Part shown: positions 46,045 to 52,031 of the stretch, piece by piece
Numbering within the stretch: the stretch's first letter is position 1
Layout of the letters: each line of letters opens with the position of its first letter
Source: Pedobacter arcticus A12
GTDB lineage: Bacteria; Bacteroidota; Bacteroidia; Sphingobacteriales; Sphingobacteriaceae
NCBI RefSeq assembly: GCF_000302595.1
Contig: NZ_AKZJ01000015.1
Location: forward strand, 1-64,000
Direction of reading: 5' to 3'
DNA: 64,000 nucleotides
The notes under the pieces: generated by a model
Databases searched by the model: none
What the model was told of the DNA's origin: nothing
What the model saw: only the letters and a program-made list of their open reading frames with translations
Translations under genes and position numbers: made by a program

Positions 46045-47439
46045 TTAAAACGCAGCTCCCGTTGCAGCAGCAGAACCAGATTTTAAGGTGAAATTTGGAG
46101 CAGTTAGACTGAAAGGGCTGTTTAATAATGTTTGTGAACTAGCTTCGGTTAAGCTTACATTTCCTTTTGCAGTAAAATATGTTTTTAACAAATCTACCGA
46201 AGTAAATGATGGAGTAGAACCCGATGCGATGATGTCGAAATTTGCAACATAAGACTGGTAAATGTTGTTAGAAATTATTGAAGTTCCATCAGTTAAAGCA
46301 TCACCAGTTTCTTTATCGCGGATGTTTAAACCGTATTTAAAGCCAATAAAGACAGAGTTTCCTAATACCATTTTAGATCCTCTTCTCCAAAGATTTGCAT
46401 GTTCGTGTTTAGCATCTACAGTGGCTAAAGCAGCTAAGTTAGCAACAGGACCAACAATCGTCATGTTTGAAATCACCGGACGAGTTCTTGGGCTTGAGTT
46501 AAATACTTGTTCAGAGTTATCAGATTCGATACCATTTGATTGTCCGGCTTGATCTGCTAATTTAGGATCTCTTTGCCCTACACAGAACTGCAATTTACCT
46601 TGAAATCCGTTATCAAAATCAAAAGAATCATCCACGTTTGAAGTAGAAATTAAGTGTTTTGCATTTACAGTACCACCAAACCATTCGAAAGAATCATCAC
46701 CAGAGAAAGCTACTTGAATATAATCTAAAGTAGTACCAGTACCAACAGAACCTAATGTTAATCCGTTAATTTCGTTGTTTGATTGGAAAGCAATTCCTGG
46801 ATATTCTATCCTCACATATTTCAATGTACCTGAATTATCATCGGCAATTGTACCACCATGCACACCAACGGTATTATCTACACCACCTTCGATAGTTCCA
46901 ACACCACCTGGGATATTGTTTGGCGCTTTACCCAATAAAATAATTCCTCCCCAATCGCCCGGAGCTCTTGAGCCTTTAGCAACGTTTGAAGTAAAAATAA
47001 TTGGTTTAGCTAAAGTTCCTTCTGCTATCAGTTTAGCGCCTTGAGTTACAATAATAGCGGCTTTTGAGCTTTTATCTCCTCTAAGAACGGTTCCGGCAGG
47101 GATAGTTAAAGTAGCACCTGCTTTTACGTAAATAAAGCCAGATAAAAGATAAACTTTGTTTGCATCTAAAGTGGTGTTTGTAGTAATATCTCCACTTAAA
47201 GTAGCAGTAGTCGCAGGGTAATCAGTTTGTTGAGGATTGTAGTTTGCCCAACCTGCAGACCAATCTGTTGTGCCAAATGCACCTTTGTATGCAACTTTAT
47301 CAAAAAAGGAGTTTGCTAAAGTTTCTGTATTATCCACCGGTGGTTCTACAATCGGATCTGAACTGTCTTTTTTACAAGCCGTAAAAGCAGATAAACCTAC
47401 TAATGATGCTACCAAGAATTGTGATTTCAAATTTTTCAT
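46045..47439 (-). CDS. Surface lipoprotein with parallel beta-helix-like repeats
   Basis: This 464-residue exported protein has a lipoprotein signal peptide ending in the lipobox FTAC (Cys about 22), followed by KKDSSD. The body alternates short strands and Gly/Asn turns, as in right-handed beta-helices (ATLTIPAGTVLRGDKSSK, AIIVTQGAKLIAEGTLAKPIIFTSN, LKYVRIEYPG, LDYIQVAFSGDDSFEWFGG). No catalytic site is recognised. Related proteins are often found beside TonB-dependent receptors. Its promoter carries an 11-bp-phased GTTAAG-type array almost identical in layout to that of the receptor upstream, so the two are probably co-regulated although each has its own promoter. Confidence 0.8.
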   Translation of the reverse strand: MKNLKSQFLVASLVGLSAFTACKKDSSDPIVEPPVDNTETLANSFFDKVAYKGAFGTTDWSAGWANYNPQQTDYPATTATLSGDITTNTTLDANKVYLLSGFIYVKAGATLTIPAGTVLRGDKSSKAAIIVTQGAKLIAEGTLAKPIIFTSNVAKGSRAPGDWGGIILLGKAPNNIPGGVGTIEGGVDNTVGVHGGTIADDNSGTLKYVRIEYPGIAFQSNNEINGLTLGSVGTGTTLDYIQVAFSGDDSFEWFGGTVNAKHLISTSNVDDSFDFDNGFQGKLQFCVGQRDPKLADQAGQSNGIESDNSEQVFNSSPRTRPVISNMTIVGPVANLAALATVDAKHEHANLWRRGSKMVLGNSVFIGFKYGLNIRDKETGDALTDGTSIISNNIYQSYVANFDIIASGSTPSFTSVDLLKTYFTAKGNVSLTEASSQTLLNSPFSLTAPNFTLKSGSAAATGAAF

Positions 47440-47460: not shown

Positions 47461-47539
47461 TAAAAGTACAGGGCTTGAGTTAGCTTAAGATTACCAAAGT
47501 ATTAAGTGTACAAAAGGTTTTAGTTAAGCTAATGTTAAG
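47461..47539 (-). promoter_or_regulatory. Pho-box-like phased array and -7 box of the lipoprotein gene
   Basis: On the plus strand half sites GTTAGC (47479), ATTACC (47490), ATTAAG (47501), GTTAAG (47523) and GTTAAG (47534) all fall on one 11-bp phase; only the unit at 47512 is degenerate. In gene sense they read CTTAAC-N5-CTTAAC. A -7-like TACTTTTA (47461-47468) begins exactly 11 bp from the nearest unit and 22 bp from the start codon. The pattern resembles OmpR/PhoB-type direct-repeat operators. Confidence 0.7.
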
Positions 47540-47541
47540 TC

Positions 47542-50316
47542 TTATTTAAAAGTATAGGCAAAACTGATTGATACGCTTGATCCATATTTCTCAGAAATAT
47601 TAACGTAATCTGTGTTTTTGTCAAAACGGCCGTTGTTATTGGCATCTTGGTAAAACACTCCTTTATTGTTTAAGATATCACTGTAATTGATTTTAAACTC
47701 TCCTTTAGATTTTGCAATCTTTTTAGATATTTGGAAATCTAAGATGTTGCGTGGATTTTCGTAAATGTCTTTATCAGACACGTTACCTACAGCCCATATT
47801 CTTTTTCCAATTCTGTTGTATAACAAGCTAAAGCCAATAGCGTTAGCAGATGTTGAGCTGTATTGTATGCCCGTATTAATTAGGTAAGGAGATTGTCCTT
47901 GCAATGGTCTTACGCCGTCTTTGTTTACCAGTTTAGAAACCACCACTTCAGATTTTATAAAAGAAGCATTTGCACTAAATGTGAAATTTTTAAATCTATC
48001 ATCAATAAATTTCAACGATTTACGTACTTCAGCTTCTACACCATATAAAGTTGCAGACTCGGAATTCTCGTACCCTAATGTTCTGCCGCTTGTACCCAAT
48101 TGCAAAGTTTGTTCAATAGGTAAATCAAACCTTTTAAAGAAAGTGGATACAGAGAAGGTTTCACCGCTGCTAGGATAAGTTGCAAAGCCTAAATCAACGT
48201 TTATAGTACTTGATTGTTTAAGTTTTGAATTACCTTGTACCGATACGTTTTTATTGAAATCGTAAAAAGAAAAGGGAGCAATTTCTCTAAATTCTGGACG
48301 GCCAACCGTTTTAGAACCCGATAACCTAAAGCTTGATTTTTCTGTTAAGTTATAAATCATGTTAACAGAAGGCAAAATATTGATGTAAGTAGTGTCAACT
48401 ACTATTGGTGTATAAGCATTATCAGCACTGTTTAGGTGTTGGTTGTAGGCTTCTAATCTTGCGCCAGCTCCAACTCTTAATTTCTCTGTCACAAAGCCAT
48501 CAAACATTGCATACCCAGCATTCAAAAAAGATTTTGCGTGGTAAGTATCAGCACCGTTTGTAATCTCATCTAAAACAAAACCACCTGGGCGAATGTTAAC
48601 TGGTGCAAATATTTGATCTTGTGGCAAAGCTAATGCTGCATTGTTATCAAAGTTATTGTCCCTAATAAAACCAATTACTCTGGCGCTAAAATCTCGCTCA
48701 CGTAAGTTTCCAAAATAACCCAATTTGATTTTGTTATTATCCGCAAACCATTTTATTGGAATGCTTAGGTTTGTTGCTGCGCCATAAGAATTTTCGTTTA
48801 GCTTAGAAGAAAAACTACCTGCTAACCTTGGATCTGCAGAACCCGTTTGCACAGAAGCAACGCCTTGCGAATATTCCATACGTTTGAAACCAGGCTCTTT
48901 ACGGTCGGTGTTTGCAAAATTAAGATTCCAGTCTAACTTTGTTTTGCTACTTTCTGATAGTAAATGCTCCCCACTTAACTGGTTGCTAATTAAAGAGCGT
49001 TGCAATAGATAATCGGCTGTTCTGCTAAATGCTTCATTACTTTCGTCAATTCCGTTTCTGCTGGTAAATTTGCTTTCGAGTACGCGATTATATATGTTTT
49101 TGAAGGCTATTTTGTTGTTGCCAAATGTGTAAGCAAAATTTGCCAATCCCCCAATATTGGTATTGTAGCTATAAATCTGATCATTCAACTTATCGCCAAC
49201 GTTTTGACCTGCATAAGCAATCTGATCAACATCTTTTAGGCGTTCATCATAACGGTAGGATAAGGAAAGAATAGTTCCAAATTTATTGTTGTTTTTGAAG
49301 ATTTTACTGTCGCCGTAATTAGCTTGAAAAGCAGGTCCTAATTTGGATTTAACGCTGTTATATCCCCAGTTATTTTTAAAGGCTTTAGATAACTCAAAAC
49401 GTTCTGGACCTTGGCTCGGTAAAGCTAAATATTCGGCTTTGGAAGGGAAACTTTTGGGAATATCTCTTCCTTTATCGTAAAAGCCAAAAACGTTGTTCCC
49501 ACTGTTTGGTGCCGAAATAAAGTCTTTGAAGGTAGATTGTGTGTTGTATGAGGTGCCTAAAGACAAATTGAAGAATTTATTGTCGGGGAAATCTTTGGTG
49601 CTTACTTGCACCACGCCTCCAGAAAAATCGCCAGGAATATCTGCGGAGGCAGTTTTATTGACGACTATCGCATCAATCAAATTTGAGGGGATAATGTCGA
49701 AAGAGAAGGCTTTTCTGTCTACCTCGGTATTAGGTAAAACGGCATTGTTCAGCATTGCCGAGTTGTAGCGATCAGAAAGTCCGCGTACAATAATAAACTT
49801 GTTATCCTGAATGGATGCACCACTTACTCTTTTTAATACTTCCGAAGTGTTTTTATCTGGCGATTGTTTGATCACATCAGATGAGATACCGCTTGAAATA
49901 CTGATGTTGTTTTTTTGCTGTGCATATAGTGCGCCCACAGATGCTCTTCTGTAAGAAGCAGTAACTACAACCTCGTTTAGCGCTTGTACGTTGGACTCTT
50001 GCATCGCAACATTAAGCGCCGTTGCCACACCATCTTTAACTTCAATATCTGTAACGGTATGCGTTTGGTAGCCTAAATAACGGAAGGTTAAATTATACTT
50101 TCCAGGATTTAGATTCGCGATAACAAAACGACCTTCAATATCTGTGGAAGTGCCTTTTGTTGTGCCTTCAATACCTACAGTTAAGCCAATTAGAGTTTCT
50201 CCGCTAGCCTTGTCCACTACTTTACCAACCAGCTTACCAGTATCTGCAAAGCTTGTTGTTGAAAATGCCATTAGTACTAAGGCAATTTTTATTGTTTTTA
50301 AAATATAATTTTTCAA
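47542..50316 (-). CDS. TonB-dependent receptor
   Basis: This 924-residue outer-membrane receptor has a signal peptide (residues 1-24), a carboxypeptidase-like regulatory domain (about 25-110, KLVGKVVDKASGETLIGLTV, NLNPGKYNLTFRYLGYQ), a plug domain (about 130-240, NTSEVLKRVSGASIQD, FIIVRGLSDRYNSAMLNNAV) and a 22-strand beta-barrel ending YTFK. It takes up a substrate with energy from TonB. There is no SusD-like partner, so it is not a glycan Sus system. The phased GTTAAG array in its promoter and the nearby lipoprotein and PAP2 phosphatase suggest a phosphate- or phosphoester-related role, which is inference. Confidence 0.9.
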   Translation of the reverse strand: MKNYILKTIKIALVLMAFSTTSFADTGKLVGKVVDKASGETLIGLTVGIEGTTKGTSTDIEGRFVIANLNPGKYNLTFRYLGYQTHTVTDIEVKDGVATALNVAMQESNVQALNEVVVTASYRRASVGALYAQQKNNISISSGISSDVIKQSPDKNTSEVLKRVSGASIQDNKFIIVRGLSDRYNSAMLNNAVLPNTEVDRKAFSFDIIPSNLIDAIVVNKTASADIPGDFSGGVVQVSTKDFPDNKFFNLSLGTSYNTQSTFKDFISAPNSGNNVFGFYDKGRDIPKSFPSKAEYLALPSQGPERFELSKAFKNNWGYNSVKSKLGPAFQANYGDSKIFKNNNKFGTILSLSYRYDERLKDVDQIAYAGQNVGDKLNDQIYSYNTNIGGLANFAYTFGNNKIAFKNIYNRVLESKFTSRNGIDESNEAFSRTADYLLQRSLISNQLSGEHLLSESSKTKLDWNLNFANTDRKEPGFKRMEYSQGVASVQTGSADPRLAGSFSSKLNENSYGAATNLSIPIKWFADNNKIKLGYFGNLRERDFSARVIGFIRDNNFDNNAALALPQDQIFAPVNIRPGGFVLDEITNGADTYHAKSFLNAGYAMFDGFVTEKLRVGAGARLEAYNQHLNSADNAYTPIVVDTTYINILPSVNMIYNLTEKSSFRLSGSKTVGRPEFREIAPFSFYDFNKNVSVQGNSKLKQSSTINVDLGFATYPSSGETFSVSTFFKRFDLPIEQTLQLGTSGRTLGYENSESATLYGVEAEVRKSLKFIDDRFKNFTFSANASFIKSEVVVSKLVNKDGVRPLQGQSPYLINTGIQYSSTSANAIGFSLLYNRIGKRIWAVGNVSDKDIYENPRNILDFQISKKIAKSKGEFKINYSDILNNKGVFYQDANNNGRFDKNTDYVNISEKYGSSVSISFAYTFK

Positions 50317-50338: not shown

Positions 50339-50417
50339 CAAAAGTATTAGCGTAATGTTAAGCGCTTGTTAGCGTAGGATTATTTAAAGGTGATGCTATT
50401 GTTAAGAGAACGTTAAG
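50339..50417 (-). promoter_or_regulatory. Pho-box-like phased array and -7 box of the TonB receptor gene
   Basis: Half sites at 50346 (ATTAGC), 50357 (GTTAAG), 50368 (GTTAGC), 50401 (GTTAAG) and 50412 (GTTAAG) lie on one 11-bp phase, with degenerate units at 50379 and 50390. The minus strand -7 box TACTTTTG (50339-50346) matches TAnnTTTG and is 11 bp from the first strong unit, the same geometry as at the lipoprotein promoter. The gene starts 22 bp after the -7 box. Confidence 0.75.
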
Positions 50418-50514: not shown

Positions 50515-51267
50515 CTAAAACTTATAGGTAATAGCAAAGCCGTTAGCGCCTTGTATATAAGTAGGGGATAAGCTCAAATTATTTGATTTGTTGTCGGTAA
50601 TTAGCTTTTTTATTTCTGGATAAATTAGGTAAGCAACCTTTGTTGATAACAAGCCAAAGCCTGCTCCAGCAACAACATCACTCACCCAATGAGCTTTATT
50701 GTACATTCTGAAAACGCCTGTGGCTGTTGCTAAGCTATAACCTGCAACGCTATACCAAACAGACTTATCTTTATATTCTTGATTCAATAATTCTGCTAAC
50801 ATAAAAGCCGTAGCGGTATGTCCAGAAGGAAAAGACTTTTTGTTTGATCCGTTTGGTCGTAATCTATTTGTACTGATCTTTAGCAAACCAACGCTAGTTG
50901 CCATTATTGCGGTAGATAAAACTAAGGTTGCACTACGGTCAACAATATTGTGTTTGGCTTTTATCCCTAAAAAATCTAATCCATAAAATGCAACAAGTGG
51001 TGCATACTGTGTGTAGTTATCTAATCTTACGCCAAACAGCGGAAAATCTTCTTTAAGCTCTCCATGAGTGGAGTGGTCTAGCTGGCGTATAAAATTGTTG
51101 CCGGCAAATGAAATAGCACCATAGCCTATAAATACAGCAGGAGCAACGTAAGAACTTAGCTTTTGTGTAGCGAAAGGTTGTGTTTTGGTACTGTCTAAAT
51201 CCTGACTAAATGTTGAGCTACTTGTGATAAAGATGAAGGTAAAAAGCGTAAAAATGTACTTCGGCAT
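50515..51267 (-). CDS. PAP2 family phosphatase
   Basis: This 250-residue exported protein has a signal peptide (residues 1-21) and the three motifs of the PAP2/acid phosphatase family: KISTNRLRP, FPSGHTATAF and an R-x5-H-x3-D site (FRMYNKAHWVSDVVAG). Phosphoryl transfer occurs at the second His, in the periplasm. The substrate could be a phospholipid or an undecaprenyl or other phosphate ester. It lies 14 bp downstream of the COG4705-type gene on the same strand, probably as an operon, and 198 bp from the TonB receptor. Confidence 0.88.
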   Translation of the reverse strand: MPKYIFTLFTFIFITSSSTFSQDLDSTKTQPFATQKLSSYVAPAVFIGYGAISFAGNNFIRQLDHSTHGELKEDFPLFGVRLDNYTQYAPLVAFYGLDFLGIKAKHNIVDRSATLVLSTAIMATSVGLLKISTNRLRPNGSNKKSFPSGHTATAFMLAELLNQEYKDKSVWYSVAGYSLATATGVFRMYNKAHWVSDVVAGAGFGLLSTKVAYLIYPEIKKLITDNKSNNLSLSPTYIQGANGFAITYKF

Positions 51268-51281
51268 AAAATGATTCTTTG

Positions 51282-52031
51282 TTATAGGTTGCTTGTTTGT
51301 TTAACTGATTTTTTATGGCTGTAAATTACGAGTAAAATAATTAGCGTAGCACTAACGCAGGTGGCTGGAATGGTACCTAAATCCAAACCACCCTTTGTGG
51401 TGGGCTTGGTAAGCAAATCGCCGAAGGTTGCGCCAAACGGACGGGTAAAAATAAAAGCAATCCAAAACAAAATGATTTCATTAACCTTGGTAAAGTAATG
51501 AACCGCTATTACAATAGCAATGATTCCAGCAGTTAATAAGGCACCGTATCCATAGCCTAAATTTAAATTATCGCTCAAAAAATCGCCGAAAGCAGTTCCC
51601 AAACTATTGGAAAACAGAATAGCAACCCAATAAAATATTTCTACCCTCTTTTTTTTAATCGGATAAACAGCAAGATTTCCTTCGGTTTTAAACCAAGTTA
51701 ACAAAGCCAGCAACAGACCCACGAAAAGTATTAAGGAACCTAGAACGTAACCTAATTTTAGTGTCCTGTCCATAAAATCAGATATTTCGGTGCCTAGCGT
51801 GGTGGTTCCTGTAATCACCAGCCAGTATAAGGCCGGGTAAAACTTTTTTGCGTTCAGTTGAAAAAATAGTGCTACTGCAAAGCCTAAGCCCGTGGCTAGT
51901 AAGCCAATTCCGTAGCCCAAGTTGAGTGTCATGGAGAGTAAATCTCCTAAGGTTTCGCCTAAGGTGGTCGAAAGAATCTTCATTACCCAAAACAATAGGG
52001 TAATCTGCGCAACCTTATTTAATTTTTCCAT
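51282..52031 (-). CDS. COG4705-type membrane protein with fourfold repeat
   Basis: This 249-residue integral membrane protein has about eight hydrophobic helices in four ~60-residue repeats. Each contains a TLG-x3-GD-x-L...LGYG signature: TTLGETLGDLLSMTLNLGYG, TTLGTEISDFMDRTLKLGYV, NSLGTAFGDFLSDNLNLGYG and RPFGATFGDLLTKP followed by LDLG. The acidic Asp in each repeat lies next to a helix, which could form a cation site. The family is uncharacterised to my knowledge. It precedes the PAP2 phosphatase by 14 bp. Confidence 0.8.
   Translation of the reverse strand: MEKLNKVAQITLLFWVMKILSTTLGETLGDLLSMTLNLGYGIGLLATGLGFAVALFFQLNAKKFYPALYWLVITGTTTLGTEISDFMDRTLKLGYVLGSLILFVGLLLALLTWFKTEGNLAVYPIKKKRVEIFYWVAILFSNSLGTAFGDFLSDNLNLGYGYGALLTAGIIAIVIAVHYFTKVNEIILFWIAFIFTRPFGATFGDLLTKPTTKGGLDLGTIPATCVSATLIILLVIYSHKKSVKQTSNL

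Follow-up and report, generated by a model that had tools for sequence, protein, structure and literature searches.

Pho-box-like arrays of TTAAC half-sites with an 11-bp period at the promoters of a TonB receptor and lipoprotein pair in Pedobacter arcticus

Introduction

In Escherichia coli, the Pho boxes recognized by PhoB are built of 11-nt direct repeat units with the core CTGTCAT (PMC4415409), and a gap of 10 bp separates their end from the -10 element (PMC1906773). In cyanobacteria, the SphR boxes are described as direct repeats of CTTAACCT with a 3-bp linker (PMC1906773).

Low-phosphate proteins are already known in Bacteroidota (PMC8115612). In Flavobacterium johnsoniae, PUSIV (Fjoh_0543-0546) comprises PhoR, PhoB, a TBDT and the FII lipoprotein. 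The receptor, Fjoh_0545, is listed with PF07715, PF13715 and PF14905, and the values given for phosphate depletion, apparently on a log2 scale, are FC 8.02 for the receptor and FC 9.91 for the lipoprotein (PMC8115612). A resemblance to a Caulobacter lipoprotein of phosphate starvation has been described for the Flavobacterium lipoproteins FI-FIII (PMC8115612; PMC2996285).

Regulators and their sites have also been reported in this phylum and elsewhere. Bacteroides fragilis PhoB binds the pstC promoter, at a site for which the available text gives no definition, and its PhoB-dependent genes include a phosphate/sulphate permease gene (PMC3547664). In Riemerella anatipestifer, DAP-seq of PhoP yielded a motif with the core TTTAACA, likened to E. 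coli ArcA, and 583 peaks, many of them at genes without a phosphate link (PMC9603813). For the plcP clusters of marine bacteria, putative Pho boxes have been predicted, with no box sequence in the available text (PMC4796936). A word search of the available text of PMC8115612 returned 0 occurrences of "Pho box" and of "motif". Our literature search, with supplements and most subscription papers outside it, gave no paper evidently defining a Bacteroidota Pho box, which is no proof of novelty.

Here, we analyze a stretch of 64,000 nucleotides (the window; contig NZ_AKZJ01000015.1, positions 1 to 64,000) from Pedobacter arcticus A12, a member of the Sphingobacteriaceae. The original prediction, made from the DNA letters, was that five half-sites on a single 11-bp phase upstream of a lipoprotein gene resemble the cyanobacterial Pho box and form a binding array for an OmpR/PhoB-type regulator.

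Results

Two arrays with the same layout in the window

The array lies between the genes of an outer-membrane lipoprotein and a TonB-dependent receptor, and a twin of it lies upstream of the receptor gene:

46045..47439, minus strand: outer-membrane lipoprotein, 464 aa, with lipobox Cys22 and a predicted parallel beta-helix
47461..47468, minus strand: -7-like box TACTTTTA of the lipoprotein promoter (from the sequence and the register scan of the window)
47479..47539, minus strand: Pho-box-like array of the lipoprotein promoter (from the sequence and the register scan of the window; its 2-skip-3 layout is also seen in relatives)
47542..50316, minus strand: TonB-dependent receptor, 924 aa, with CarbopepD_reg_2, Plug and OMP_b-brl_3 (Pfam)
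50339..50346, minus strand: -7-like box TACTTTTG of the TonB receptor promoter, at the same 16-bp offset as in the lipoprotein promoter
50357..50417, minus strand: Pho-box-like array of the TonB receptor promoter (from the sequence and the register scan of the window)

The lipoprotein array occupies most of the 102-bp gap between the receptor stop (47542) and the lipoprotein start (47439). All five half-sites lie where they had been predicted. On the plus strand they read GTTAGC (47479-47484), ATTACC (47490-47495), ATTAAG (47501-47506), GTTAAG (47523-47528) and GTTAAG (47534-47539), with steps of 11, 11, 22 and 11 bp, and 47512-47517 is an empty slot. Numbered towards the gene and read in gene sense, the slots hold CTTAAC (slot 5, 47534-47539), CTTAAC (slot 4, 47523-47528), an empty turn (slot 3), CTTAAT (slot 2, 47501-47506), GGTAAT (slot 1, 47490-47495) and GCTAAC (slot 0, 47479-47484). 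The predicted position directly upstream of a -7-like box also holds, with TACTTTTA (47461-47468) following after a 10-bp gap and beginning 16 bp past the start of the last half-site. We take TAnnTTTG to be the Bacteroidota -7 element.

In dinucleotide shuffles of the 102-bp gap, an exact 11-bp pair arose in 9 of 20,000, the six-slot match sum in 2 of 20,000, and at least four slots matching at 4/6 or better in 810 of 20,000. These odds flatter the array because the consensus was drawn post hoc from the site itself. The shuffle tests of the gap were not relied on, and the genome and the relatives served as the independent tests.

When both strands of the window were scanned for a TA..TT box with half-sites in register, two places only were returned, the lipoprotein and receptor promoters. 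In gene sense, the receptor array reads CTTAAC (50412-50417), CTTAAC (50401-50406), an empty slot (50390-50395), AATAAT (50379-50384), GCTAAC (50368-50373) and CTTAAC (50357-50362), followed by 10 bp and TACTTTTG. The five-site 2-skip-3 layout is common to both promoters of the receptor/lipoprotein pair. The receptor gene is immediately preceded, in the same orientation, by genes for a PAP2-type phosphatase (50515-51267) and a DUF347 membrane protein (51282-52031), and the register scan of the window placed no array before either.

The receptor and lipoprotein in relatives

Promoters of 30 lipoprotein homologues were examined among 169 genomes with a match, with homologue starts moved to the first Met; in an earlier upstream set, for which the longest open frame was used, some starts were uncertain. 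Under a strict register rule (half-sites in slots 1 and 0 plus TA..TT), 12 of the 30 passed and 18 failed. Shuffled lipoprotein promoters passed at a mean of 0.025 over 200 rounds, with a maximum of 1 of 30. Slots 5, 4, 2, 1 and 0 are all filled in 8 of the 12 passing promoters, that of the window included, and slot 3 is empty in 12/12. The 18 failing homologues are mostly more distant, and some are perhaps paralogues.

The promoters of the window receptor and 11 relatives all fit the register, the distal pair being present in 8/12, with the best-scoring register picked per promoter. Seven of the 11 relatives came from the composite search described below, which by design supplies their two proximal sites; this applies neither to the distal sites nor to the other four relatives (L037-L040).

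The lipobox Cys22 is invariant across 15 aligned lipoprotein homologues. The lipoprotein returned 0 Pfam or NCBIfam matches at E 0.001. Its AF2 model (mean pLDDT 78) gave weak matches to beta-helix PDB proteins, and only the beta-helix class is claimed because the Foldseek TM-scores are at most ~0.3 on the query. The most similar lipoproteins from named relatives are those of a Pseudopedobacter MAG (83%), Pelobium manganitolerans (79%) and Pedobacter segetis (78%), and a homologue match was also seen in a Myxococcales MAG (L041, 49%). Judged by gene order and fold and not by direct sequence comparison, the protein may well be the counterpart of the Flavobacterium low-phosphate lipoprotein FII (Fjoh_0546).

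Matches in the P. arcticus genome

We searched the 4.23-Mb genome with the reversed motif as control. The exact pair CTTAACN5CTTAAC occurs at 5 sites (control 0), where the chance expectation is 0.7 to 1.2; this expectation was taken from one-mismatch counts (25 single-mismatch matches; 43 control matches) divided by the 36 possible variants. Three of the five sites are in promoters, before the DUF47-PiT operon, the receptor and the lipoprotein; the remaining two lie inside genes. At up to one mismatch this pair is background, with 30 matches against 43 in the control.

A composite motif, TTAACN6TTAACN10TAnnTTTG, has a single own-genome site at 0 mismatch, before the DUF47-PiT phosphate-transporter operon. 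At 1 mismatch there are two more, before the window TonB receptor and before a PlcP-like gene with a glycosyltransferase. The proposed test, whether arrays mark phosphate genes in this genome, comes out in favour at this level, where the composite at up to one mismatch is found before these three alone. In the window scan the composite misses the lipoprotein promoter even at 3 mismatches, owing to the degeneracy of its two proximal half-sites. With up to 3 mismatches allowed, the genome-wide count is background (221 against 254 in the control). The 13 two-mismatch sites had no evident phosphate gene, and 5 lie inside open frames (gene names by eye; no control).

The PlcP-like gene is located as follows:

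L138:6185-8031, minus strand: PlcP-like metallophosphoesterase and MJ1255-like glycosyltransferase, with the one-mismatch composite 90 bp upstream

Pfam places Metallophos and Metallophos_2 in the PlcP-like gene, and its top NCBIfam model is LpxH-type (56.3 against a cut-off of 134). The metallophosphoesterase and glycosyltransferase are probably PlcP and its glycosyltransferase in a phospholipid-remodelling operon, a label read from sequence. Low-phosphate genes in Flavobacterium include PlcP (Fjoh_4577, listed with PF12850) and a glycosyltransferase of another Pfam family (PMC8115612), and plcP is induced under phosphorus starvation in the flavobacterium Dokdonia (PMC4796936).

Composite sites across the family

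Across 61 family genomes, the exact composite occurs at 59 sites, against 3 for the reversed control, and 45 of the 61 genomes carry a site. Phosphate-related genes lie downstream of 52 of the 59. DUF47 accounts for 41 (28 assigned by BLAST, 13 by coordinates) and TonB receptors of the window kind for 7 (39-46% identity over the aligned part). Single sites precede a PlcP-like gene (65%), a PhoA alkaline phosphatase with GDPD_2 (PF00245+PF13653), a type I phosphodiesterase and a PF04185 phosphoesterase. The 59 sites are not independent because they are largely orthologous; the gene kinds are independent. These sites support the predicted OmpR/PhoB-type binding array, and the identity of the regulator is what we infer below.

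The remaining 7 sites precede four ECF sigma factor genes, one other TonB receptor, one DUF218 gene and one TPR protein gene. The four ECF sites (L179, L235, L236, L240) lie 5-12 bp before the sigma factor genes, two of which were assigned by Pfam and two by eye. They could be chance occurrences or a sign that ECF regulons are tied to phosphate.

We fetched 30 DUF47 promoters among 192 genomes with DUF47. TTAAC-N6-TTAAC is present in 30/30, and a box at a fixed position, at the distance seen in the two window promoters, reads TA..TT in 30/30 and TA..TTTG in 28/30. The consensus is.TTAACAtTAaCTTAACATtGgg.T.gTAgcTTTG, in which the second repeat reads CTTAACAT. Extra TTAAC spacings of 5 and 6 bp occur in the DUF47 spacers, in 14/30 each. 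Since TTAAC recurs inside the spacer, the DUF47 set alone cannot fix the 11-bp period, and the other promoters are needed too. PiT follows DUF47 at all 30 loci, and a histidine kinase precedes it at 28.

Composite sites outside the family

In a phylum survey of 247 genomes, 7 of them from the own family, 231 are without an exact composite. Outside the family there are 10 exact sites, against 2 in the control. Four of them stand before TonB receptor genes related to the window receptor (29-38% identity over the stretch that was read), and two before membrane-protein genes that are similar to each other. The other four precede a pstS-like gene (PF12849), a Porin_O_P gene, a histidine kinase gene and a phoB gene that is followed by a kinase. 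With these sites, the rule is not confined to the family, though it is densest there. As in a Pho box, the motif marks phosphate-supply genes inside and beyond the P. arcticus genome.

In two genomes of another family, the exact composite lies 52-55 bp upstream of L258:385-1449 and L259:385-1446, both on the minus strand. The L258 gene is LPG_synthase_TM by Pfam and the L259 gene is similar, and a membrane-lipid link is possible for these sites.

A PhoB-like regulator with an array in its own promoter

The P. arcticus genome encodes seven OmpR-type (Trans_reg_C) regulators. The regulator at C2:224249 tops both PhoB models, with 226.7 and 216.1 bits (next best 187.2 and 182.0), and falls under the curated PhoB cut-offs of 296.2 and 270, respectively. 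Its own promoter carries TTTAAT-N5-GTTAAT-N5-CTTAAC.

Regulator promoters were compared at 30 family loci (L146-L175) among 99 genomes with the regulator. TTAA[CT] pairs 11 bp apart occur in 29 of the 30 and pairs 22 bp apart in 26; at other distances from 5 to 40 they occur in at most 10. Three-site chains are present in 25/30 promoters and two-site chains in 4/30. From the last site to a -7-like TA..TT box the distance is 27 bp (16+11) in 23/30; the P. arcticus promoter has 26 bp, three others have 28 and two have 38, and one has none. The last site is thereby mostly one turn further from the -7 box than at the target genes.

In E. coli, phoB is itself Pho-regulated. The regulator promoter here, by its sequence, could be that of an autoregulated PhoB gene. 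Another regulator (L141) has TTTAATN5TTTAAT upstream. Autoregulation of phoB across the phylum was considered and is unsupported: 24 promoters were read of 27 loci (one of the 24, L206, is from the own family; for lack of a readable start, L223, L230 and L232 were left out), and 11-bp TTAA[CT] pairs occur in 5 of the 24. Most PhoB-like promoters in other families, among the 24 read, are without an array.

The sensor side of the system was examined at the DUF47-PiT locus:

L031:7541-8605: PhoR/PnpS-like histidine kinase before DUF47-PiT; top models PnpS, WalK and PhoR, all below cut-off

In the own genome, this kinase has two hydrophobic/membrane segments with almost no periplasmic loop between them, and no Pfam domain was found in it beyond the kinase core. 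A search for PhoU (PF01895), positive in 13 of 14 control genomes, returned 0 matches in the own genome. With this result phoU, one of the genes put forward for the proposed test, dropped out as a landmark, and on this point the genome departs from a classical Pst/PhoU-linked Pho system.

Discussion

We conclude that the lipoprotein array is very probably a PhoB-type Pho box with cyanobacterial-like half-sites, that is, a predicted regulator site. What supports this conclusion is the sequence itself, the register and its conservation, the phosphate genes that the motif marks and the promoter of the PhoB-like gene; binding, phosphorylation, cooperativity, polymerase recruitment and low-phosphate induction are what we infer. 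Three findings go beyond the original prediction: the receptor promoter shares the layout, the -7 box lies at a fixed distance, and the PhoB-like gene has an array in its promoter.

In the proposed mechanism, when phosphate is short, a sensor kinase would phosphorylate the PhoB-like regulator, whose dimers would bind head-to-tail TTAAC half-sites 11 bp apart. By analogy with E. coli PhoB (PMC1906773), the -33 region would be covered by a dimer occupying slots 1 and 0; since the last half-site ends 10 bp before the -7 box, at about the place of the -33 element, the bound regulator is expected to recruit RNA polymerase. The distal pair, being in phase, would add cooperative binding. The two promoters would switch on an outer-membrane phosphorus-uptake pair, and the second promoter might supply lipoprotein in excess of receptor, as in the F. 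johnsoniae values quoted above (PMC8115612).

Several observations invite other explanations. With seven Trans_reg_C regulators in the genome, one of the other six might bind the array through an overlapping TTAAC specificity without being primarily a phosphate regulator. The ArcA-like motif and broad binding of Riemerella PhoP (PMC9603813) point that way, as does the TTTAATN5TTTAAT upstream of the L141 regulator. This explanation seems unlikely to us, in view of the phosphate-related genes behind 52 of the 59 family composite sites and because the most PhoB-like regulator has the array before it at 29 of the 30 loci compared.

A promoter element of a general, AT-rich kind (UP-like or constitutive), unrelated to phosphate, would suit the AT-rich region, the looser searches that equal their control and the exact composite at four ECF sigma genes. 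It is hard to square with 59 exact composites against 3 in the control, with a TTAAC pair in 30/30 DUF47 promoters and with the identity of the genes behind the matches, and we regard it as highly improbable. Chance phasing in an AT-rich gap, which draws on the 810 shuffles of 20,000 with four slots at 4/6 or better, deserves hardly any credence: the 2-skip-3 layout is repeated at the adjacent receptor promoter, and it is complete in 8 of the 12 passing lipoprotein promoters, against a shuffled mean of 0.025 and a maximum of 1/30 under the register rule.

The PhoB-type reading provides a readable DNA rule for the family phosphate regulon, namely TTAAC half-sites repeated at 11-bp intervals, with a gap of 10 bp between the last one and TAnnTTTG. 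Such a rule would allow uncharacterised outer-membrane receptors and lipoproteins to be assigned to phosphate scavenging from sequence. It also describes a Pho-like system in a genome where the PF01895 search did not find PhoU. We offer as a tentative idea, on balance doubtful, that the phosphate signal of this family bypasses PstSCAB-PhoU. DUF47 (Pfam PhoU_div) and PiT would then act as a flux sensor restraining the adjoining kinase. The readout would pass through PhoB, with half-sites at distances of 16+11n bp from the -7 box, and promoter strength would be set by how many turns are filled and at which positions.

Among Bacteroidota, a close parallel is PUSIV, which has the same receptor Pfam make-up beside a lipoprotein and whose pair goes up in phosphate depletion (PMC8115612); the lipoprotein here is without a Pfam match. 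The PUSIV pair adjoins phoBR, whereas in P. arcticus the pair lies on one contig, the kinase on another and the PhoB-like gene on a third. The Riemerella PhoP sites share the phylum and the letters TTTAACA, and PhoP there has sites in front of phoPR and in front of a TonB receptor gene; in contrast, the available text describes neither an 11-bp register nor a -7 spacing for them (PMC9603813). Of the marine plcP clusters, the available text does not state whether the flavobacterial ones carry a box (PMC4796936).

With the E. coli Pho box, the arrays share 11-nt repeat units, a 10-bp gap to the promoter element and phosphate genes (PMC4415409, PMC1906773). The lipoprotein array has two or more such direct repeat units, and in both window promoters the last repeat ends 10 bp before the predicted -7 element. 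A PhoB-type regulator with a box in its own promoter is present as well, albeit below the curated cut-offs. The half-site core differs, being TTAAC here and CTGTCAT in E. coli, and the PF01895 search did not find PhoU in the P. arcticus genome.

The likeness to the cyanobacterial Pho-box core that had been predicted is upheld, as the CTTAAC core and the 11-bp period match the SphR boxes, and at least two direct repeats and phosphate genes are shared too (PMC1906773). Compared with CTTAACCT, the arrays have the CTTAAC core and an 8-bp repeat with a 3-bp linker, but the repeat ends in AT here and in CT in cyanobacteria, which are another phylum (PMC1906773). Unlike the cyanobacterial box, the arrays of this family combine a fixed distance to the Bacteroidota -7 box with the five-site 2-skip-3 layout, and their targets are PiT, a TonB receptor, a lipoprotein and a PlcP-like gene.
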